A DNA stretch of 64,000 bases from Haladaptatus sp. DJG-WS-42 (lineage in GTDB: Archaea; Halobacteriota; Halobacteria; Halobacteriales; Halococcaceae), in NCBI RefSeq assembly GCF_037198285.1, contig NZ_CP147243.1:2596422-2660421 (forward strand). Reading direction: 5' to 3'. Every line of letters starts with the position of its first letter. Positions within the stretch are counted from its first letter, which is position 1. Of this stretch, positions 16,531 to 25,991 are shown piece by piece. The notes below the pieces were generated by a model. It did not search any database, was not told the DNA's origin, and saw only the letters and a list, made by a program, of their open reading frames with translations. The translations under genes and the position numbers were made by a program.

Positions 16531-16737
16531 ATGTTTGGTGCGTGGCGCATTCCGCTCGGAGACCGAGTGAAGTCGAAAGCGGTGTTAGCGTGGCTGTACC
16601 TGTTTGCCTGCCTCGTTGGCCTGCTCATCGTCGATAGCCGAACAACTGTTACCGGAGTTACGTTCATGCCACTCATTCTGGCGGTCGCCGTGACGCTTGC
16701 GTTGCCGTTCTGGCCGCTGTTCCGGAAACTTCGCTAG
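16531..16737 (+). CDS. small two-helix membrane protein
   Basis: A 68-residue protein with two hydrophobic helices, about residues 18-36 (VLAWLYLFACLVGLLIV) and 44-60 (FMPLILAVAVTLALPFW), and a short basic tail. The start is 27 nt after a TTATAATC box. I do not recognise the family. It converges on the DR2241-type gene, the two stop codons overlapping by a few bases around CTAG. Confidence 0.6.
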   Translation: MFGAWRIPLGDRVKSKAVLAWLYLFACLVGLLIVDSRTTVTGVTFMPLILAVAVTLALPFWPLFRKLR

Positions 16738-17780
16738 CGCTCGAATCGCCCGTCGGTCAGTCGCTTTGCCCGCAGGTAGCGCGCCCGATACCGGTTTGCA
16801 CCATCGTACACGTCGGCTTCTCGAATCTCAGCTACGCGCCCCTCCGAAACCGCCTCCACCAGTTCTCCTAACTGCTCGAACTCGCTCTCGGTCAGCGTCA
16901 ACTCGTAGGTTTGCTCCGATTCCTGTTCGAGTTTCGTCCACTTTCGCGCCGCGGCGACGACGAGCGAACACGGTTCTCGACACGGGAACTCACCCTCACC
17001 ACGCGGTACCGAGAGGGGCGTCTCTGCATCTTCGTCCCACTCGCGGCGTTTCAGGCACTGGGAATCGACACAGCACGCTTCGGCCACCCACTCGACCGCC
17101 TCCACCGGAAGCTCGTCGATGATGTCGTAGATTCCGGTCTGGCGTTCTGCGGTCTCGCGGAAGTGCGTCACATCAAGTTCGCTTTCCCGCTCTCGATACC
17201 AGTTTGCGACCGTCGCTGGGTAGAAAAAGTCCACCGTCCGCAGCAGGTCGCGCCCAGAGAGCGAGACGAACTCCCACCCACCGGCGAGCGTCGGCGCGGT
17301 CTTGAGCGGTCGATACCGACCATCCGCGTCGCGTTTCGCGATATCGCGGGCGTCGAGTGGGTCGGTGTAGCTGGCTAACGTTTCAGCATTCACGCCTGCA
17401 TCTGTGACGTGGCACACGCGATACGTCCGCTCGCCCGTCTCAGTAATTGCCGCGGTGATGTGAAGTTCGCCCCACTCCGTAGAGAGACCGTCGCTGAGCG
17501 TTTCATAGCGGGTCGCCACGCTCGTCCCGTCTGCACCTTCCAGATCGCGCAAAAACGCGCGGCGTGCCGGGTCGTCGAGGCTTTGCCAGTAGTCCCAGTT
17601 CGACACGAGCCACGGGTGGTCTGCAGCGACGGCGTCGAACGCTTCCTTGCTCAGGCCCTCGTGGCGCGTCGCGGGCGTTTCGAACGTGTAGCCGTTCTCG
17701 TTCTGTGAGACAACGAGACCGTCACACGAGACGCCGTCTGCGGCGGCTTCTCTGAGCGCGGCGCGGTGGGGTTCCGTCAT
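16734..17780 (-). CDS. DR2241 family iron-sulfur protein
   Basis: A 348-residue protein matching the DR2241 family, often found beside CbiX-type chelatases. The N-terminal part is a stabilising domain (residues 1-60, ending WLVSNWDYWQSL). A middle domain follows, and then a cysteine cluster, EACCVDSQCLKRREW (near 240) and FPCREPCSLVVAAARKW (near 270), that fits a [4Fe-4S] site. It overlaps the upstream cbiX gene as ATGA, so the two are co-translated. The likely role is assistance in metal chelation or sirohydrochlorin handling; this rests on gene context and has not been shown to my knowledge. Confidence 0.82.
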   Translation of the reverse strand: MTEPHRAALREAAADGVSCDGLVVSQNENGYTFETPATRHEGLSKEAFDAVAADHPWLVSNWDYWQSLDDPARRAFLRDLEGADGTSVATRYETLSDGLSTEWGELHITAAITETGERTYRVCHVTDAGVNAETLASYTDPLDARDIAKRDADGRYRPLKTAPTLAGGWEFVSLSGRDLLRTVDFFYPATVANWYRERESELDVTHFRETAERQTGIYDIIDELPVEAVEWVAEACCVDSQCLKRREWDEDAETPLSVPRGEGEFPCREPCSLVVAAARKWTKLEQESEQTYELTLTESEFEQLGELVEAVSEGRVAEIREADVYDGANRYRARYLRAKRLTDGRFER

Positions 17781-18649
17781 TGCCCACCTCCCACGGCGCG
17801 GGTTGCTTCACGCACTGTTTCAACGGCGTCGCCAACGGGCGCGCCCGCATCAGCGGCGCGTTCGAGAATCACGTCTGCCATCAGGCGCTCGGTACCGACC
17901 GCCCCCGAGTACCAGATGCGGTGGCCATCGACCGTTGCGGGAACGTCGTATCCCGTGCGGTAGTCGTCGGTGAGGCCCATGTCCTCGGGGATGTCCTCTT
18001 GGGTGTGGAAGCCATCCGCGATGAACAGCGGGACGACGACGATATCCTCCGACTCGAAGAAGTCGGTCACGTCGTCAACCTCTGGTTCCTCATCCATGAA
18101 CAGCGCCTCGACCTCCGTGAATCGCCCGGAGTCGCGGATGCGGTCTGCGTGGTAGTGAATCGCCTTCGCGGAGTTCGCGTTGCGTTCGGTGCCGTGGCCG
18201 ACGACGGCGAGACCGAAGTCCGGCCCGACCTCGGGGTCGCCCGTCACCGACTCTGCTCGACGAATTATCACGTCGGTCATCGACTCGTGGGTACCAACCG
18301 GTCCGCAGTAGTGCACTGTCTTTCCGGTGTCTTCACTCGTGAGCGTGACGTGGGTCGCGCTCAACCCGTCAGAGTCCCAGTCGGCCACGTCCCAGCCAGC
18401 AAGGCGCAGTTCCCGGGGAATCACCTGTTCGGTGAAGTAGCCCTCGCTGATGAACAGTGGAACGACGTACACCTCGTCACTTTCGAGCGTGCGAATGACC
18501 TCTCTGAACGACGGCTCTTCTTTCCAGAACGCCTCGCGCACCTCGTCGAACACGCCCGCGGCTCGAATCGTGTCCGCGTGGGCGAACGTCGGGGTGCTCG
18601 ACTCCGCGTTCAGATGCGAACCGTGGGCGGCAATCACGAGCGCCTTCAT
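17777..18649 (-). CDS. cbiX: CbiX/SirB-type sirohydrochlorin chelatase, tandem domains
   Basis: A 290-residue protein made of two CbiX/SirB repeats. Each has a His-containing motif at its start (VIAAHGSHLNAES at residue 4, VVGHGTERNANS near 153) and a matching VVPLFISEGYFTEQ or VVPLFIADGFHTQED block. Class II chelatases insert Co2+ or Fe2+ into sirohydrochlorin for cobalamin, siroheme or related tetrapyrroles. Fused two-repeat forms function as a pseudo-dimer. The ATG at MKALVIAAHG is chosen because the frame upstream is not protein-like. It is coupled to the DR2241 gene; no other tetrapyrrole gene is in the window. Confidence 0.88.
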   Translation of the reverse strand: MKALVIAAHGSHLNAESSTPTFAHADTIRAAGVFDEVREAFWKEEPSFREVIRTLESDEVYVVPLFISEGYFTEQVIPRELRLAGWDVADWDSDGLSATHVTLTSEDTGKTVHYCGPVGTHESMTDVIIRRAESVTGDPEVGPDFGLAVVGHGTERNANSAKAIHYHADRIRDSGRFTEVEALFMDEEPEVDDVTDFFESEDIVVVPLFIADGFHTQEDIPEDMGLTDDYRTGYDVPATVDGHRIWYSGAVGTERLMADVILERAADAGAPVGDAVETVREATRAVGGGQ

Positions 18650-18749
18650 TAATAACATCTCTTGGGAGAGGTCGGCCTTAGCGGCTTCGCCCGCGGAAAC
18701 CCACACATGCAGGGGGAAATCGTTTGGTCGTTGCTTTCCTCTTTTCACC

Positions 18750-19823
18750 ATGAAACTGCTTGACGTCACCCTCCGAGAGGGAGAGCAACGACCGGGGCGG
18801 CGTTTTTCGGTCGATGAAAAGGTCGCCGCCGCCCGCCACCTTGACGCGCTCGGCGTGGACTACATCCAACTCGGGTTTCCCGTCGCAGACGACCGCACGA
18901 AGCGCGTCGCAGCCAGGTACGACGGCACCGCCAAAACAACGGGTATCGCCCGCGCCATCGAAGGCGACATCGAAGCCACCGTCGACGCGGGCGTGGACGT
19001 TATCGACCTCTTCGCGCCGACGAGCGACGCCCAGCGCGAGTTTATGCTCGGTGACTCCCGCGACGACCTGCTTACGTCCATTCAGAAGGCGCTCGACGTT
19101 GCCCACGACACCGGCCTCGAAGTCCACTTCACCGCGATGGACGGGTTTCGCACGGACCTCGACTTTCTCACAGAAGTCGTCGAAGCCGTCGATGCGGAGT
19201 ACGTCACCATCGCAGACACCGTCGGCAGTCGGACACCGAGAGGCGTCGAAGAAACGCTCACCGCCCTCGATACCGACCTCACGCGCGTCGGCGTCCACTT
19301 CCACGACGACATCGGCGTCGCCACCGCAAACGCGCTCGCTGCTGCTGACATGGGCGTTGGCCGCGTAGACGTGTCGGTCGCAGGCATCGGCGAGCGTGCC
19401 GGAAACGTCCCGACAGAGGAGTTCGTCGTCGCCGGATTGCTCGGCGAAGAGGCCGTCGAGTCGAACATCGACACCACGAATCTGCTCACCCACGCTCACG
19501 CCGTTCTCGACGCGCTTGGCGAGGACGTGGCCGACTGGAAACCCCTCCTAGGCGACCAAGTGTTCTCCCACGAATCGGGATTACATACCGCCGCGATGTT
19601 GGACGACCCGGCGCTGTTCGAGCCGTTCGACCCCGCAGCGTTTGGCGGGACCCGTCGCCTGCTGTTCGGCCCTGATACGGGACGCGGCGCAGCGCGACGA
19701 CTCCTCACTCGTGCGGACGTCGAACCGACCGACAAGCGGGTGGCCGCGCTGCTTTCTGCACTTGGTGAAAGAGAAGAAGTGGAACTGGACGACGCGCTCT
19801 CGCTCGCCCGCGCGGTCAGATAG
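18750..19823 (+). CDS. LeuA-family acyltransferase (isopropylmalate/citramalate synthase-like)
   Basis: A 357-residue DRE-TIM metallolyase, starting MKLLDVTLREGEQRPGRRF, which carries the RxxxQ catalytic pattern. The metal-binding HFHDDIGVATANALAA is near 190 and the GIGERAGNVPTEE block near 212. The downstream HESGLHTAAM block is near 275. The C-terminal regulatory (LeuA dimer) domain of full isopropylmalate synthases (about 500 residues) is missing, so feedback control by leucine is not expected here. Acceptor could be 2-oxoisovalerate, pyruvate or 2-oxoglutarate; the sequence alone does not tell. It overlaps the convergent CoA-transferase gene by 8 bp. Confidence 0.82.
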   Translation: MKLLDVTLREGEQRPGRRFSVDEKVAAARHLDALGVDYIQLGFPVADDRTKRVAARYDGTAKTTGIARAIEGDIEATVDAGVDVIDLFAPTSDAQREFMLGDSRDDLLTSIQKALDVAHDTGLEVHFTAMDGFRTDLDFLTEVVEAVDAEYVTIADTVGSRTPRGVEETLTALDTDLTRVGVHFHDDIGVATANALAAADMGVGRVDVSVAGIGERAGNVPTEEFVVAGLLGEEAVESNIDTTNLLTHAHAVLDALGEDVADWKPLLGDQVFSHESGLHTAAMLDDPALFEPFDPAAFGGTRRLLFGPDTGRGAARRLLTRADVEPTDKRVAALLSALGEREEVELDDALSLARAVR

Positions 19824-20997
19824 CGCCCTGTTCTCTGAGCGCTTCGATTTCTGTACTCGAATAGCCGAGGCTGGCGAGAATCGAGCCGGTGTCCTCGCCG
19901 AGCGTCGGCGGATCGTCCGAGTCAATCGGCGAGAACGCAGACGAGCGGATGGGAGAGCGCGGCACGTTCACGCTGTCGCCGTCGCCCTCCGCGACGTGAA
20001 TCGACGTGAGCGCGTCCGTGGCCGCGAGGTGTGGGTCGTTACAGACCTCACGGATGTTGTTCACGGGCGCGACGGGGACGCCCGCCTCGTGGAGTTTGTC
20101 CACAATCGCTGCCCGGTCGAACTGTCGAAGTTCGACGGCGAGCAAGTCGGTGAGCACCTCGACGTTCTCGCGGCGGTCTGCGAGCGTCTCGAAGCGGCTG
20201 TCTTCGTGGAGCGAGAGGTCGAGCGCGCTGCAAAATGCACGCCACTGGTGTTCGCCAGATGGCCCGACAAACACCCACTTCTCGTCTGCGGTCTGGAACA
20301 CGTCGTAGGGTGCCCAGTTCGGATGGCCCGCGCCGAGGGGTTCCGGCACGTCGTCGTAGGCTTGGGTGAACGAGAGCCAGTAGCCCATGAGCGCGACGGT
20401 GCTCTCGAACAGCGGCGCGGACACCTTCTGTCCCTCGCCGGTCTCTTCGCGTTGGCGGAGCGCAGCGAGGATGCCAATTGCGCCGTAAAGCGAGGCGGCC
20501 ATGTCCGCGACGCTCGTCCCCGACCGGACGGGTGGTTCGCCGGGATGGCCGGTCACGCTCATCAGCCCCGAGAGTGCCTCTGCGACCGGGTCGAGGGCGG
20601 GATGTTCCTCATAGGGGCCTTCGTTGAACCCCTTTATCGAACAGTAGACGAGTTTTGGGTATTGTTCTCTCAGCGAGTCGTAGCCGACGCCGAGGCGTTC
20701 TGCTGTGCCCGGCTTGAAGTTCTCGACGACCACGTCCGCATCCGCGAGCAGTTGGTGGAAGATGTCGAGCCCGTCGTCGGTTTTCAAGTCGAGCGTGATG
20801 CTCTCTTTGTCCCGATTGACGTAGTTGAACGAGCTGTTGCCAAGCGGCGACGAATCGCGCACGAGGTCGCCGCCCTTTGGGTGTTCGACCTTGATGACGC
20901 GCGCGCCCATGTCTGCGAGCAACAGCGAACAGAACGGCCCGGCGATGATGTGCCCGAGTTCGAGCACGGTCACGTCTGAGAGAGGTCTGTCACTCAT
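19816..20997 (-). CDS. class III CoA-transferase (CaiB/BaiF family)
   Basis: A 393-residue family III CoA-transferase, which moves CoA between carboxylic acids through an aspartyl-CoA intermediate. Seen motifs: LELGHIIAGPFCSLLLADMGARVIKVE type start (residues 11-37), LKPGTAERLG near 98, YCSIKGFNEGPYEEHPALDPVAEA (near 122-144), and the Asp-bearing GTSVADMAASLYGAIGILAAL near 165. The start overlaps the stop of the ABC ATPase gene as ATGA, making it the last gene of the transporter operon. The substrate is unknown; the coupling suggests it activates the imported compound as a CoA ester. Confidence 0.9.
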   Translation of the reverse strand: MSDRPLSDVTVLELGHIIAGPFCSLLLADMGARVIKVEHPKGGDLVRDSSPLGNSSFNYVNRDKESITLDLKTDDGLDIFHQLLADADVVVENFKPGTAERLGVGYDSLREQYPKLVYCSIKGFNEGPYEEHPALDPVAEALSGLMSVTGHPGEPPVRSGTSVADMAASLYGAIGILAALRQREETGEGQKVSAPLFESTVALMGYWLSFTQAYDDVPEPLGAGHPNWAPYDVFQTADEKWVFVGPSGEHQWRAFCSALDLSLHEDSRFETLADRRENVEVLTDLLAVELRQFDRAAIVDKLHEAGVPVAPVNNIREVCNDPHLAATDALTSIHVAEGDGDSVNVPRSPIRSSAFSPIDSDDPPTLGEDTGSILASLGYSSTEIEALREQGAI

Positions 20998-22118
20998 GGA
21001 AGCTGGGTTTGGTTCGCCGCGAGGTCGTCACCGAAGCAAATCGTCTCGCCGTTCTCCCCGAAGATGTAGCAGTCCTCGCGGTCGAACCCGACGGTGAGTT
21101 CGTCACCCGGTTGTGCGTCATCGACTTCGGCAGAGACCACGTCTACGCGAGTGCCGTCTGCGGTTTTGCCGTGTACCACCGATTCCGTACCGAGCGGTTC
21201 GACGACCTCTGCGGTCACCGTGAATCGAATGTCGCCGCCGGACGGTCGGAGATATTGTGGCCGGACGCCGAGCGTCACCGTCTCGCCGACGTGTCCATCG
21301 AGGTGGGAGCCAACGGGCAACCGAATGCCGTGGCCTTCGATGGTTGGGGTGCCGTCTGCGTCCGTGACCGAACACCGGAGCAGGTTGGTCGAGGGCGTGC
21401 CGATGAAGCCCGCCACGTACTCTGACTGTGGCCGGTGGAACAGCGTCCGTGGCGGGTCGAACTGCGCGACGTGGCCCTCACGCAAGAGCACCACGCGGTC
21501 TGACATGGTCATCGCCTCCGTCTGGTCGTGGGTGACGTAGACGATGGTGGTGTCCAACTCCTGGTGGAGGCGCTGAATTTCGACGCGCAACTCGGATTTG
21601 AGCTTCGCGTCTAAGTCGCTCATCGGCTCGTCGAGCAGGAGCACCTCCGGGTCTTGGACGAACGCGCCGCCGAGGGCGACGCGCTGTTGTTGTCCGCCCG
21701 AGAGTTCCGCGGGCATCTTTTCGAGTTGCTCTTCGATTTGGAGCACGCGGGCGGCCTCCTCGATTTTCTCGTCTCGTTCGGCTTTCGGGACGCCGTGAAT
21801 CTTGAGGCCGTACCCGATGTTCTCGCGGACGCTCATGTGGGGGTAGAGCGCGATGGATTGGAACACCATCGAGACGTTCCGCTTCTGGGGCGGGAGGTCG
21901 GTCACGTCGTCGTCACCGAAGTGAATCCGCCCTGAGGTGGGCGTCTCGAGCCCGGCGAGCATTCGCAGCGTGGTGGTTTTCCCACACCCAGAGGGGCCAA
22001 CGAGTGTCGTGAAGGAACCGGCGGGAATCTCCAGTGAAACGTCGTCTACTGCGACGTGCGTCTGGCCGAGTGTTGTGAACTCTTTGCGAACCGTGTCGAG
22101 TCGAATGGATTGTGCCAT
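20994..22118 (-). CDS. ABC transporter ATPase, MalK/UgpC type
   Basis: A 374-residue ATP-binding subunit with Walker A GPSGCGKTT (about residues 38-46), the signature LSGGQQQRVALGGA (about 137) and Walker B VLLLDEPMSDLDAKL (about 158-172). The switch His lies in YVTHDQTEAM. A C-terminal OB-type regulatory domain (residues 240-374) is typical of the CUT1 carbohydrate importers MalK and UgpC. The start MAQSIRLD is chosen because it lies 2 nt after the upstream permease stop; the longer frame is permease coding sequence. The CoA-transferase gene overlaps its stop. Confidence 0.93.
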   Translation of the reverse strand: MAQSIRLDTVRKEFTTLGQTHVAVDDVSLEIPAGSFTTLVGPSGCGKTTTLRMLAGLETPTSGRIHFGDDDVTDLPPQKRNVSMVFQSIALYPHMSVRENIGYGLKIHGVPKAERDEKIEEAARVLQIEEQLEKMPAELSGGQQQRVALGGAFVQDPEVLLLDEPMSDLDAKLKSELRVEIQRLHQELDTTIVYVTHDQTEAMTMSDRVVLLREGHVAQFDPPRTLFHRPQSEYVAGFIGTPSTNLLRCSVTDADGTPTIEGHGIRLPVGSHLDGHVGETVTLGVRPQYLRPSGGDIRFTVTAEVVEPLGTESVVHGKTADGTRVDVVSAEVDDAQPGDELTVGFDREDCYIFGENGETICFGDDLAANQTQLP

Positions 22119-22120
22119 AG

Positions 22121-22984
22121 TTATTCGAGCCCTCCGACGCTGAACCCCTGCAGCAGGTATCGCTGGAGGAACAGCGCGATGAGGAATGGGGGGATGGAGA
22201 TGAGCAGCGAGACGGCCATCGTCTCGCCCCATCCGATGGTGACGCGGTCTAAGAACAGACTCGCGCCGACGTTGATGGTGTACATGTCGTCGTTGCTCAT
22301 GACGATACGCGCCATGGTGAAATCGTTCCACGCGACGGCGAAGGCGAAGATCGCCGCCGAGATGTAGCCCGGCCGGGCGACGGGCAGGACAACGTCCCAG
22401 ACCGTCCGGAAGCGACTCGCGCCGCGCACCCACGCCGCCTCCTCAAGCGAGAGGGGCACCGTCTGGAAGTACTGCCACATGAGCCAGATGGTGAACGGCG
22501 CGGAAATCGCGGTGAGCGCCAGCGTGAGCGCGAAGTAACTGTTCAACAGCCCGAGGCTGTAGAAAATCACGTACAGCGGGATGGCGAGCACGATGGGGCT
22601 GAACATGTAACTGAACAGCACCGCGCGTGCTGCGATGGACTTCCCGCGGAACTCGAAGCGGGTGAGGCCGTAGCCTGCGGCAATCGCGATTGCCGTCGAG
22701 AGAATCGTCGAACTCGCCGTGACGATGAGGCTGTTCGTGAAGTAGCGAACCGTCTCGGTGGTGTTCAAGAGAACGAGGAAGTTTCGCGCCGTGAAACCCT
22801 TCGGAATCAAGTTCACCTGTCCGCCCGCGAAGGTGGCCGCCGGAGACTGCAGGGCGATGACCACCATCAGGTAGACGGGCACCACGACGAACGTCGTGAT
22901 GAGCAAGGCGGTGACGTACAAGGCGATGCGCTGAAGGCGCTGTTGGGTTCGGTGGCCGAACCAACTGGAATCAGCGGTCGCCAT
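22121..22984 (-). CDS. ABC transporter permease, MalG/UgpE type
   Basis: A 287-residue inner-membrane permease with six predicted helices. The EAA loop contacting the ATPase reads EEAAWVRGASRFRTVWDVVLPVARPGY (near 195-221). Gene order and size match the second permease of CUT1 importers. It overlaps the preceding permease gene by 1 nt (TGATG) and is followed after 2 nt by the ATPase gene. Confidence 0.92.
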   Translation of the reverse strand: MATADSSWFGHRTQQRLQRIALYVTALLITTFVVVPVYLMVVIALQSPAATFAGGQVNLIPKGFTARNFLVLLNTTETVRYFTNSLIVTASSTILSTAIAIAAGYGLTRFEFRGKSIAARAVLFSYMFSPIVLAIPLYVIFYSLGLLNSYFALTLALTAISAPFTIWLMWQYFQTVPLSLEEAAWVRGASRFRTVWDVVLPVARPGYISAAIFAFAVAWNDFTMARIVMSNDDMYTINVGASLFLDRVTIGWGETMAVSLLISIPPFLIALFLQRYLLQGFSVGGLE

Positions 22985-23895
22985 CAGTGGGCCACCTCCG
23001 TTTCCGGCGCAAACGTACGGAAGTAGACCACAGCGGCCGCCGCGAGCAGGAAGAACATGATGCCTGCGAGCGCGGTCGCCTCACCGAAGTTCACCTCGTT
23101 GAACGCGATTTGGAACACGCGAATCGGGAGGGTGGTCGTCTCCTGCAGTGGCCCGCCGCGCGTGGTCAGATAGATGATGTCGAATTTATTGAACATCCAG
23201 ATGCCCCGGACGAGGAGGATGATGAGGATGGCTCCTCGGAGGTGGGGCATGGTGATGTCGCGGAACGCCTGCCACGTCGTCGCGCCCTCGACGCGCGCCC
23301 GTTCGTACAGGTCGGGGTCGATGGCCTGCAAGCGGGCGAGCAGGATGAAAAACGCGAACGACGCGAACTTCCAGACGCTCGTGATGACGACGGCGGGCAT
23401 CGCCCACGTCAGCGTCGAGAAGAAGGCGATTGGCTCTGCGATGAGACCGGCGTTTTCGAGCACCTGATTGAGGACGCCGATGTTCGGGTCTAAGATGAAT
23501 TTCCACATGAAGATGACCACGAGCGTCGGCAACAGATACGGGAAAATCATCAGCGTCCGTAGGGCCGCCCCACCGCGAATCTTCTGGTTCACGACGAGTG
23601 CAAGCCCAAGGCCGAGCACGAGGCTGAGCCCTGTCGTCGCAATGGCGTAGACGACGCTGTTCCAGAGAAAGCCCCAGAACGTTGGCTCTGTGAGGAGTGA
23701 GACGTAGTTGCCGAGCCCGACGAACACCGGATTTCGCACCGGCTCTTGAAACAGACTCATTCCGAGGGCGTACGCTATCGGGACGACCCAGACGACGATG
23801 AAAAACGCCACCAACGGGACGAACGACACGAGCAAGAGCCACGTGCTCCCGTCTAAGTCGGGGGTTCGAAGGCGGTTTTTCAGGCTGACGCTCAT
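22984..23895 (-). CDS. ABC transporter permease, MalF/UgpA type
   Basis: A 303-residue permease with six predicted helices, the first at about 19-39. The EAA loop reads YERARVEGATTWQAFRDITMPHLRG (near 197-221). It pairs with the MalG/UgpE-type permease to form the membrane channel of a CUT1-type importer. The gene starts in an ATGA overlap with the end of the binding-protein gene and ends in a 1-nt overlap with the next permease gene. Confidence 0.92.
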   Translation of the reverse strand: MSVSLKNRLRTPDLDGSTWLLLVSFVPLVAFFIVVWVVPIAYALGMSLFQEPVRNPVFVGLGNYVSLLTEPTFWGFLWNSVVYAIATTGLSLVLGLGLALVVNQKIRGGAALRTLMIFPYLLPTLVVIFMWKFILDPNIGVLNQVLENAGLIAEPIAFFSTLTWAMPAVVITSVWKFASFAFFILLARLQAIDPDLYERARVEGATTWQAFRDITMPHLRGAILIILLVRGIWMFNKFDIIYLTTRGGPLQETTTLPIRVFQIAFNEVNFGEATALAGIMFFLLAAAAVVYFRTFAPETEVAH

Positions 23896-25220
23896 CGCTT
23901 GAGACTACGGAGCTTTTCAGCGAGCCAATCGACGGTCTCCTCCGGAGATTTCCCGCCGACGAGCAGTTGGTCTGCGGCCTGTCCGAACACCTGGTTGCCG
24001 TAGCCGTCTGCGGCGAGCAGGTTCGGCGCGCCGCCGTCGCCCGTGGCGAGGACGGAGGTGAACACGTCCCAGTTGTCCTTGACGAGTTGGAGGACTTCTG
24101 GGTACTCGTTCAGCGTCTCGTTGTTTTTGACCGCGTCGCTGTCGAGCTGTTCGCGGCTTGGTGGGAACTGGAACAGCGGCGCAGAGAGCACGAAGTCGAA
24201 GAACTTCTCAGACTGGTTGAAGAACTTCACGAACTCCTGTGCGCCCGTCGTCGCTTGGCCGTCGTTTCGCACGAGGTGGCCCTCCATGTACGCCCACCAC
24301 TTGTCCTGGGCCTTCCCCTGTGGAACGGGGAACGGCATCGGGCTGAACTGCTTCACTAAATCTGGGCGGTTACTGGACATGATGAGGATGGGCAGTCCAC
24401 CTACGGAGACGCCCGCGGCGGCGTTTTCCTGTTGGAGCGCACCAATCGCGTCGCCCCACTCCCACCCGCTGCCGTTGGGCGAGTACTCGGCCATCTGCTG
24501 GACCCACTCGAACGTCTCGATGGCGGCGGCGCGGTTGTCGCCTTTGTCCACCGTGACCTCGATGTTGTCAGACGGCCCGGAGTAGATTTGGACGTCATTT
24601 TGCCAGAGGTACTGGGTCATCTGTGTGTCGGCGTTGTTCGTCTGCCCGGACTGGACGATGTACCCCTGCATGTCCTCTTCTTCGGAGACGCGCTGTGCCT
24701 CTGCCTGCCAGTTCTCCCACGTCTCTGGATTCTCGTCGTAGATGTCGCTTCGATACCACCCCATCAGCGGTTCGACCATCGCCGCCGCGAAGTAGGACTC
24801 GCCGTCTACGTTCACGGGGTCAGGGAGGTCGTTGTTCGCCACTGCGTCGGTGAGCGGCGCGAGGACGCCGTCTCGCTGGAGGCGGTAGGCGTCGGTCGAG
24901 GTGTCAAAGAGGATGTCCGGTGGGTTGCCCGCCGCCACCATCTTCTGCATCTCTTGGTCGGTCGAAGTCCCCTTCGAGGTGTACGTCACTTCGACAGTGT
25001 ACTCTGATTGCTCTTCGAACTCGGCGATAATCGCGTCCATCACTTCCTTCGAATCGCCGCGGTCTGAGAGGTAGCGGACGGTGGTGCTCTCGCCGTCGCC
25101 TCCGCCGCCACCGCCGCCAAGACAGCCGGCGAGTGCGAGTGCGGATGCGGTCGCGCCCGTGCCCTGTAAGAATCGTCGTCTGGTGTGCTTCGCTGGTCGG
25201 TTGCCTGCCTCGTTAGCCAT
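23892..25220 (-). CDS. Tat-exported lipoprotein, ABC substrate-binding protein
   Basis: A 442-residue extracellular solute-binding protein of the family 1 (UgpB/MalE-like) type. The N-terminus has a twin-arginine motif (TRRRFLQG, residues 13-20), a hydrophobic stretch and a lipobox LAGC with Cys33, then a Gly run as a flexible linker. The mature protein is acidic. It captures the substrate outside the cell for the two permeases encoded next. The start at 25220 is preferred over 25235 because a GGATAAAG box predicts transcription beginning near 25229. The substrate is not identifiable from sequence; a sugar is the default for this family. Confidence 0.92.
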   Translation of the reverse strand: MANEAGNRPAKHTRRRFLQGTGATASALALAGCLGGGGGGGDGESTTVRYLSDRGDSKEVMDAIIAEFEEQSEYTVEVTYTSKGTSTDQEMQKMVAAGNPPDILFDTSTDAYRLQRDGVLAPLTDAVANNDLPDPVNVDGESYFAAAMVEPLMGWYRSDIYDENPETWENWQAEAQRVSEEEDMQGYIVQSGQTNNADTQMTQYLWQNDVQIYSGPSDNIEVTVDKGDNRAAAIETFEWVQQMAEYSPNGSGWEWGDAIGALQQENAAAGVSVGGLPILIMSSNRPDLVKQFSPMPFPVPQGKAQDKWWAYMEGHLVRNDGQATTGAQEFVKFFNQSEKFFDFVLSAPLFQFPPSREQLDSDAVKNNETLNEYPEVLQLVKDNWDVFTSVLATGDGGAPNLLAADGYGNQVFGQAADQLLVGGKSPEETVDWLAEKLRSLKR

Positions 25221-25224
25221 GGTT

Positions 25225-25271
25225 TGGTATACCATGGTCTACCATGAACGACTTTATCCTACAGATGTAGG
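25225..25271 (-). promoter_or_regulatory. promoter and operator-like repeats of the ABC/CoA-transferase operon
   Basis: On the minus strand a TATA-like GGATAAAG (25252-25259) is preceded by the inverted repeat CCTACA-TC-TGTAGG (25258-25271). It is followed, around the predicted start of transcription, by two CATGGTA repeats exactly 10 bp apart (25240-25246 and 25230-25236), plus the palindrome TGGTATACCA (25225-25234). Repeats one helical turn apart over a start site are typical operators. The regulator may be the HTH-10 protein encoded just upstream. Confidence 0.55.
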
Positions 25272-25313
25272 TTCTTTAAGTACACTTCCGGAAACACGCG
25301 GGGGTTATCTCCC

Positions 25314-25991
25314 TCACGTAGACGGGCCGGGAGCAACGGGTGGGTTGCCAACGGCCACCTGCGTCGACGACTGGTGGAGCGCCTCGGTGAGGAGCTTTTT
25401 CTCGGCTTTCCGCAGGTGTTCTAAGAGCGTCGTGTGCGTGATGTCGAGTTGGGCGGCGAGCGTCTTCGCGTCGATGCGTCGAGGCCAGTCGAAGTAGCCC
25501 TGTTCTATGGCGGCTCTGATGACCTCCTCTTGTCGCGTCGAGAGCGAACTCGTCGTGTCGTCTACTGGCGTCAGGCGGCCGAGTCTGACACTCCCGATTT
25601 TCCGAAGGTCTGTAACGATGGCTTTCAGGTCTTCGCGTCTGAACACGATGACGTCGAACACGCGCTCGTTGCCGTTGACGCGGTCTAATCCGTGGAGCAT
25701 GCCGTGATTTTCACGGATGATGGGCAACGCACCACATGAGCGTTTGGTGACGAGCAGCCCGGAGGTTCCGATACGCTCGACCTCGGTCACCATCTCGTCC
25801 TCGCGCAGGCGCGCCTCGAAGCGGTCGCTTCGTTCACCGGCTTCGATGAGGAACGTGATGTACTCGTCGTCCAGCACTTCTTCTTGCGTGACGGTGAACG
25901 ATTCGTCTCCCTCGCTTGTGATTTTGCTCAGGACACAGTCACACTGCAAGTCGAGATAGAGGGTCGCGCGAAGCATGTGGTGTGTTCTCAT
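25314..25991 (-). CDS. bacterio-opsin-activator type (HTH-10) regulator
   Basis: A 225-residue regulator with an N-terminal sensor-like region and a C-terminal HTH-10 domain. The latter shows LSTRQEEVIRAAIEQGYFDWPRRIDAKTLAAQLDI then THTTLLEHLRKAEKKLL, the haloarchaeal Bat signature. The start MRTHHML has a GAGAG stretch just upstream and lies after a possible TATA (GATTTAG, near 26033); a Met 5 codons later is an alternative. The gene lies directly upstream of the ABC operon on the same strand, so it is the obvious candidate regulator for it; that is inference. Confidence 0.85.
   Translation of the reverse strand: MRTHHMLRATLYLDLQCDCVLSKITSEGDESFTVTQEEVLDDEYITFLIEAGERSDRFEARLREDEMVTEVERIGTSGLLVTKRSCGALPIIRENHGMLHGLDRVNGNERVFDVIVFRREDLKAIVTDLRKIGSVRLGRLTPVDDTTSSLSTRQEEVIRAAIEQGYFDWPRRIDAKTLAAQLDITHTTLLEHLRKAEKKLLTEALHQSSTQVAVGNPPVAPGPST

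Follow-up and report, generated by a model that had tools for sequence, protein, structure and literature searches.

In a 64,000-nt stretch of the Haladaptatus sp. DJG-WS-42 genome (NZ_CP147243.1; hereafter the window, in which all positions are counted), a tight minus-strand operon encodes an HTH_10 regulator, a CUT1-type binding protein, two permeases, a MalK-type ATPase and a CaiB/BaiF CoA-transferase (CaiB). A LeuA/HMGL-like DRE-TIM enzyme is encoded next to CaiB, and this gene, which the first-pass annotation overlooked, is a conserved seventh member of the module. We consider the seven genes to form a regulated module that degrades a carboxylic acid from the surroundings, with uptake, CoA activation, cleavage and HTH_10 control, and we give this reading a probability of roughly 0.55. 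It is supported by the recurrence of the operon and its HMGL-like neighbour in 28 genomes, by the replacement of the transporter in some relatives, and by the same putative operator in the versions with an ABC transporter and in those with a tripartite tricarboxylate transporter (TTT). In addition, the nearest curated models of the CoA-transferase use dicarboxylates, and the metal ligands and catalytic His of the DRE-TIM enzyme are retained.

In the pathway that we infer, from the class of acid and the CoA donor to the direction of cleavage, the binding of HTH_10 and repression, the CUT1-type ABC transporter would import a di- or tricarboxylic (probably hydroxy) acid, and CaiB would activate it with CoA taken from succinyl-CoA or a different acyl-CoA. 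The HMGL-like metalloenzyme would then cleave the CoA ester, which might be a 2-alkylmalyl-CoA such as citramalyl-CoA, in a retro-Claisen reaction that yields acetyl-CoA and a 2-oxo acid. HTH_10 would sense the acid or a product, bind a palindrome in front of the transport genes, and probably repress them until induced. Uptake, CoA activation, cleavage, regulator and operator would make up a complete degradation route for an organic acid, predicted here for many haloarchaea.

Gene Cluster and Conservation

The features of the cluster are given below, with domain calls from Pfam and finer family calls from NCBIfam models with curated cut-offs. All genes are on the minus strand except the HMGL-like gene.

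25314-25991, minus strand: HTH_10 (Bat-like) regulator, first gene of the cluster (PF04967, 4e-21)
25258-25271, minus-strand reading: operator-like palindrome CCTACATCTGTAGG, with a TATA-like CTTAAA at 25275-25280
23892-25220, minus strand: CUT1-type solute-binding lipoprotein (PF01547, SBP_bac_1, 2.8e-17; twin-Arg/lipobox N-terminus)
22984-23895, minus strand: ABC permease 1, UgpA/MalF-like (PF00528, BPD_transp_1; NCBIfam UgpA/MalF-like, under cut-off)
22121-22984, minus strand: ABC permease 2, GlcU/MalG-like (PF00528; NCBIfam GlcU/MalG-like, under cut-off)
20994-22118, minus strand: MalK/UgpC-type ATPase (PF00005 ABC_tran, PF08402 TOBE_2, PF17912 OB_MalK; 393 bits against the NCBIfam UgpC model, cut-off 432)
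19816-20997, minus strand: class III (CaiB/BaiF) CoA-transferase, 393 aa (PF02515, residues 6-370, 2.8e-116)
18750-19823, plus strand: LeuA/HMGL-like DRE-TIM enzyme, 357 aa, convergent with CaiB (PF00682, 2e-62; PF22617)
18700-18713: weak operator-like copy CCCACACATGCAGG, with 2 mismatches, 5' of the HMGL-like gene

The coordinates and the Pfam and NCBIfam matches confirm the gene order and joints that had been described for the transporter operon and CaiB, and the placement of an HTH_10 regulator directly upstream. The binding protein gene overlaps that of permease 1 by 4 nt (ATGA), the two permease genes overlap by 1 nt, permease 2 and the ATPase are separated by 2 nt, and the ATPase gene is joined to CaiB by a second 4-nt overlap (ATGA). 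The 3' end of CaiB overlaps the convergent HMGL-like gene by 8 nt. That the operon ends in CaiB, as had been stated, is correct for the operon itself, but not for the module as a whole, because the HMGL-like gene is an equally conserved partner.

Conservation was surveyed in 392 Halobacteriales genomes from 95 genera, and the counts include the window's own genome. CaiB orthologs (60-94% identity) are found in 35 genomes and 14 genera, and in a separate species-level collection the next CaiB relatives fall to about 40% identity and are mostly bacterial. When the loci of the other 34 ortholog genomes were compared with the window genes, the whole six-gene order (regulator, binding protein, two permeases, ATPase, CaiB) was found in 28 of the 35 ortholog genomes. 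Of the remaining seven, five are without ABC genes, one is degraded (G093), and one is truncated at a contig end (G164). All 28 intact loci have the HTH_10 gene directly upstream of the transport genes, and in all 28 the HMGL-like gene adjoins CaiB, on the same strand in 20 and convergently in 8. The binding protein has 22 orthologs (63-98% identity). Flanks of the module are common only to near relatives and a few others, several copies are on plasmids (there is a plasmid copy in Haloferax gibbonsii), and within about 10 kb around the module there is no further widely conserved gene and no conserved sugar-metabolising gene. The first-pass annotation had proposed a search for conserved gene order, with the link to CaiB to be put down to chance if the order were broken in most genomes; it is intact in 28 of 35 (14 genera), and its claim of a functional link between importer and CoA-transferase stands.

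Two loci depart from this arrangement. At L117 (G093), the ABC genes and CaiB are present, the binding protein gene lies in two frames, and neither an HMGL-like gene nor a regulator is found at the locus; this is probably a decaying copy or an assembly error. L178 (G383) has window-like flanks (CbiX, DR2241 and a DUF7523-type gene) and an intact HMGL-like gene but no ABC genes, and its CaiB is split by an insert of ∼1.6 kb with a TnpB-like open reading frame (425 aa, C-terminal CPxC zinc-finger motifs as read by eye); it is a decayed copy of the module. In the window, genes for a CbiX-type chelatase and a DR2241/4Fe-4S protein (16734-18652, 4-nt overlap) are transcribed away from the HMGL-like gene. 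The same flank occurs in G148 and G383, which belong to other families, and suggests an old chromosomal site of the module.

Exchange of the Transporter

Five loci (L138 and L142-L145) have genes for TctC, TctB and TctA in place of the ABC genes, while CaiB and the HMGL-like gene are kept in all five, and HTH_10 is kept in four, beside the HMGL-like and TctC genes. At L143 the three components match PF03401 (TctC), PF07331 (TctB) and PF01970 (TctA); on the L138 plasmid, TctA and TctC have Pfam matches and TctB is assigned by RefSeq annotation. In the CaiB tree, the proteins of the TTT-type loci form one clade (support 92) nested inside the ABC-type orthologs, which indicates an exchange of the transporter beside enzymes that were retained. 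Because TTT systems are carriers of carboxylic acids, and one replaces the ABC importer here, the substrate of the importer is predicted to be a carboxylate as well. In other relatives, genes for an SSF symporter or a NitT/TauT-type binding protein lie nearby.

The CoA-Transferase and the HMGL-like Enzyme

By its sequence, the window CaiB is a member of the class III CoA-transferase family, with predicted transfer activity; the catalytic Asp nucleophile is present in all 150 aligned sequences, the window protein included. Its nearest curated models are dicarboxylate CoA-transferases (mesaconate, glutarate and oxalate), although all NCBIfam matches are under cut-off (269.9 bits for succinyl-CoA:mesaconate CoA-transferase, NF041294, against an equivalog cut-off of 700).

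The HMGL-like family is found in 75 of the 392 genomes in a wider search, and its profile scores mark it as a distinct subfamily. In a 295-genome sample of the phylum, scores above 320 bits belong to Halobacteriales members only, and the maximum for ordinary LeuA-type proteins is about 303; a profile search over the phylum at 1e-75 matches nearly all genomes, since ordinary LeuA-type genes score too. All 62 members compared have the metal ligands and the catalytic Arg and His of a DRE-TIM enzyme, and the family retains the equivalents of Arg89, Gln93 and His388 of MAM synthase (PMC11532901). It deviates from synthases at two positions: position 40 is Gln in 59 of 62 members, where all six synthase comparators have the second-strand Glu, and position 211 is Ala or Gly where the comparators have Asn (VNGxGER). 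The best match is the subfamily model NF002085 (284 bits, cut-off 517), and the scores for NifV (244 bits, cut-off 463), citramalate synthase TIGR00977 (115 bits, cut-off 450) and HMG-CoA lyase NF004283 (57 bits, cut-off 246) are likewise low. AlphaFold models are too weak for a fold comparison (mean pLDDT, a per-residue confidence score, of 58.6 for the binding protein and 69.8 for the HMGL-like protein, with C-terminal active-site loops below 50).

Two residue-based signs of function were rejected. Loss of the Glu227/Tyr399 pair of MAM synthase and IPMS, considered as a sign of lyase activity, is seen in most of the family, but also in the LeuA of the ilv-leu operon in the window's genome. 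In this LeuA (G000:C1:52601-53632; L188, L196), encoded beside ilvB, ilvN, ilvC, leuC and leuD, Met and Phe stand where plant MAM synthase has its important Glu and Tyr. An Arg that aligns with the keto-acid pocket of S. pombe homocitrate synthase, which might have pointed to a dicarboxylic keto acid, is not conserved in the family.

The pairing of the two enzymes extends beyond the module. Thirty further loci were read; in 25 of them, a member of a distant HMGL-like branch directly follows a CaiB, which usually belongs to a different subfamily (about 30% identity), and we therefore take the CaiB/HMGL-like pair to be the stable core. In these loci, the pair is often preceded by HyuA and HyuB (hydantoinase A and B) and an isochorismatase-family hydrolase, a set of enzymes that might hydrolyse cyclic or open amides to a carboxylic acid. 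A second conserved haloarchaeal cluster consists of HyuA, HyuB, isochorismatase-family hydrolase, CaiB, HMGL-like enzyme and HTH_10, with variations (including L158, L161, L163, L164, L167, L172, L173, L177 and L180), and it looks like release of an acid from an amide followed by the same CoA chemistry. At L181 and L185, the CUT1 transporter is paired with the other CaiB type. CaiB relatives with 46-47% identity occur on plasmids of Haladaptatus halobius and Halorientalis litorea (L191, L192), in large clusters common to two haloarchaeal families; these clusters also encode a TRAP transporter, a CoA ester lyase, a 3-keto-5-aminohexanoate cleavage protein and another CoA-transferase.

A wider, more tentative picture, which we hold to be possible but would not yet favor, is that a descendant of a leucine-pathway synthase has turned into a CoA-ester lyase that works alongside class III CoA-transferases, its acids being supplied by transporters that can replace one another (CUT1 ABC, TTT, possibly SSF or NitT/TauT-type ABC), the CUT1 importer being dedicated to a carboxylic acid. 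The data also suggest that genes named “citramalate synthase” or “LeuA family” in the 75 genomes are not leucine or isoleucine synthases.

Cleavage or Synthesis

Several points weigh against an acid-degrading module with a lyase. The HMGL-like sequence is nearer to homocitrate and isopropylmalate synthases than to HMG-CoA lyase, and the enzyme could act as a synthase; the Glu/Tyr pair is equally missing in a bona fide ilv-leu operon LeuA; and three HMGL-like loci (L159, L174 and L183) have no adjoining CaiB. Substrates also vary within class III transferase subfamilies. The haloarchaeal CoA-transferase Mct is inactive on citrate and citramalate (PMC5592240), and the substrate of the module can therefore not be transferred from Mct.

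If the HMGL-like enzyme were a synthase, CaiB would provide an acyl-CoA from the imported acid, and its condensation with a 2-oxo acid would give a 2-alkylmalate for biosynthesis or detoxification. The closeness to homocitrate and isopropylmalate synthases, together with the post-HMGL domain and the HESGxH motif, agrees with this, as do the RefSeq names of relatives (“citramalate synthase” or “LeuA family protein”). We nevertheless regard it as unlikely: every synthase equivalog cut-off is missed by a wide margin, the changes from Glu to Gln at position 40 and from Asn to Ala or Gly at position 211 are family-wide, and the window's genome already has the ilv-leu LeuA and another LeuA-family gene. 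Furthermore, the combination of a CoA-transferase with a dedicated importer or, in relatives, with Hyu-type hydrolysis has the look of a catabolic system.

Palindrome and Regulator

A palindrome between the HTH_10 and binding protein genes is common to the loci (consensus CCTACANNTGTAGG, with variants such as CCAACANNTGAAGG), and in most of them it begins 9 nt past the start of a TATA-like box. The window palindrome is the only site with one mismatch or fewer in the 2.78-Mb genome, where a reversed control pattern has 8 sites per strand. In a set of ten other genomes, every exact copy lies at the module (G034, G082 and G359), and there are none in three genomes of the same family that lack a CaiB ortholog. 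A weight matrix built from ABC-type sites, for which random stretches have a 99th percentile of 11.7, also locates the palindrome 5' of TctC in four of the five TTT-type loci, with scores of 12.4-19.9.

The location just downstream of the TATA-like box suggests repression, and the HTH_10 protein is the likely binder of the palindrome. The operon had been said to have its own HTH_10 regulator; the association holds, with a conserved position beside a conserved palindrome, and binding is a prediction from it. Alternatively, another factor might bind the palindrome and control the operon, as could be argued from the fact that in most ABC-type loci no palindrome is found in front of the HTH_10 gene itself. 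We find this rather doubtful, since the motif is unique to the module in the tested genomes and stands beside an HTH_10 gene in the ABC loci and in four TTT loci.

Where the HMGL-like gene has its own promoter, the motif before it is clear at L142 (17.4), moderate at L143-L145 (11.9 at L145), weak in the window's genus (10.8 in the window), and absent at L116, L124, L136, L138, L139 and L140. The weak copy at 18700-18713 is present in three members of the genus; about 1% of random 200-nt stretches score equally high, and the site is shared with the divergent CbiX gene, so that its target is ambiguous.

Substrate of the Importer

Most CUT1 importers with a known substrate transport sugars or glycerol-phosphate. 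On this basis, the importer might take up a sugar or sugar derivative, with CaiB and the HMGL-like enzyme handling an acid that arises from its breakdown; the nearest solved binding proteins are, weakly, of the sugar type, and NCBIfam places the ATPase near UgpC/MalK. We consider this improbable, and more so than synthesis by the HMGL-like enzyme, because the module has no conserved sugar-metabolising gene and a tricarboxylate-type transporter replaces the importer while the enzymes are kept. Between the two alternatives left by the first-pass annotation, uptake of a carboxylic acid and activation of a breakdown product, the ABC-to-TTT exchange favors the former, and it suggests that annotation of CUT1 systems as sugar transporters can mislead. 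Finally, a chance placement of CaiB in the operon, for which only the decayed copies in G093 and G383 speak, can be set aside, because the genes follow one order in 28 genomes from many genera, with chromosomal as well as plasmid copies, between mostly non-conserved flanks.

Comparison with Known Systems

The individual protein families are known. In the literature searched, we found no description of the module, its conserved HMGL-like partner, the transporter exchange, the operator or this combination of parts, in agreement with the first-pass annotation, which knew of no described system of this make-up.

The closest parallel in logic is the itaconate/methylsuccinate cluster of Pseudomonas and Cupriavidus (Ict, Ich and Ccl; PMC12290011), in which a CoA-transferase activates an imported C5 dicarboxylate and a lyase yields acetyl-CoA and a 2-oxo acid, and a TTT binding protein is encoded near the Cupriavidus cluster (PMC12290011). 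Unlike this cluster, the haloarchaeal module has no gene for itaconyl-CoA hydratase or CitE-type (S)-citramalyl-CoA lyase, and none is widely conserved within ∼10 kb of it; the candidate lyase is a LeuA-type DRE-TIM enzyme, and a CUT1 ABC system takes the place of the importer. The Mct enzyme from the methylaspartate cycle of haloarchaea (PMC5592240) is likewise a haloarchaeal class III CoA-transferase and provides the best NCBIfam model for the window CaiB. However, CaiB is far under the cut-off, and the module lacks genes for mesaconyl-CoA hydratase and glutamate mutase.

Isopropylmalate, citramalate and homocitrate synthases (mechanism in PMC11532901) share the domain layout, metal ligands and catalytic residues of the HMGL-like enzyme, which differs from them in the Gln in place of the second-strand Glu, the Ala or Gly in place of Asn in VNGxGER, and scores far below the cut-offs. 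HMG-CoA lyase together with SUGCT (succinate-hydroxymethylglutarate CoA-transferase) would follow the same logic of a CoA-transferase and an HMGL-fold enzyme acting on a hydroxy dicarboxylate, and SUGCT is among the nearest solved structures of the window CaiB, whereas the HMGL-like protein is far under the cut-off of the HMG-CoA lyase model. Finally, the transport genes resemble CUT1 importers such as MalFGK and UgpABCE in having a binding protein, two permeases and a MalK-type ATPase with a TOBE/OB domain in one operon, but here the operon ends in a CoA-transferase, and relatives swap the importer for a TTT.

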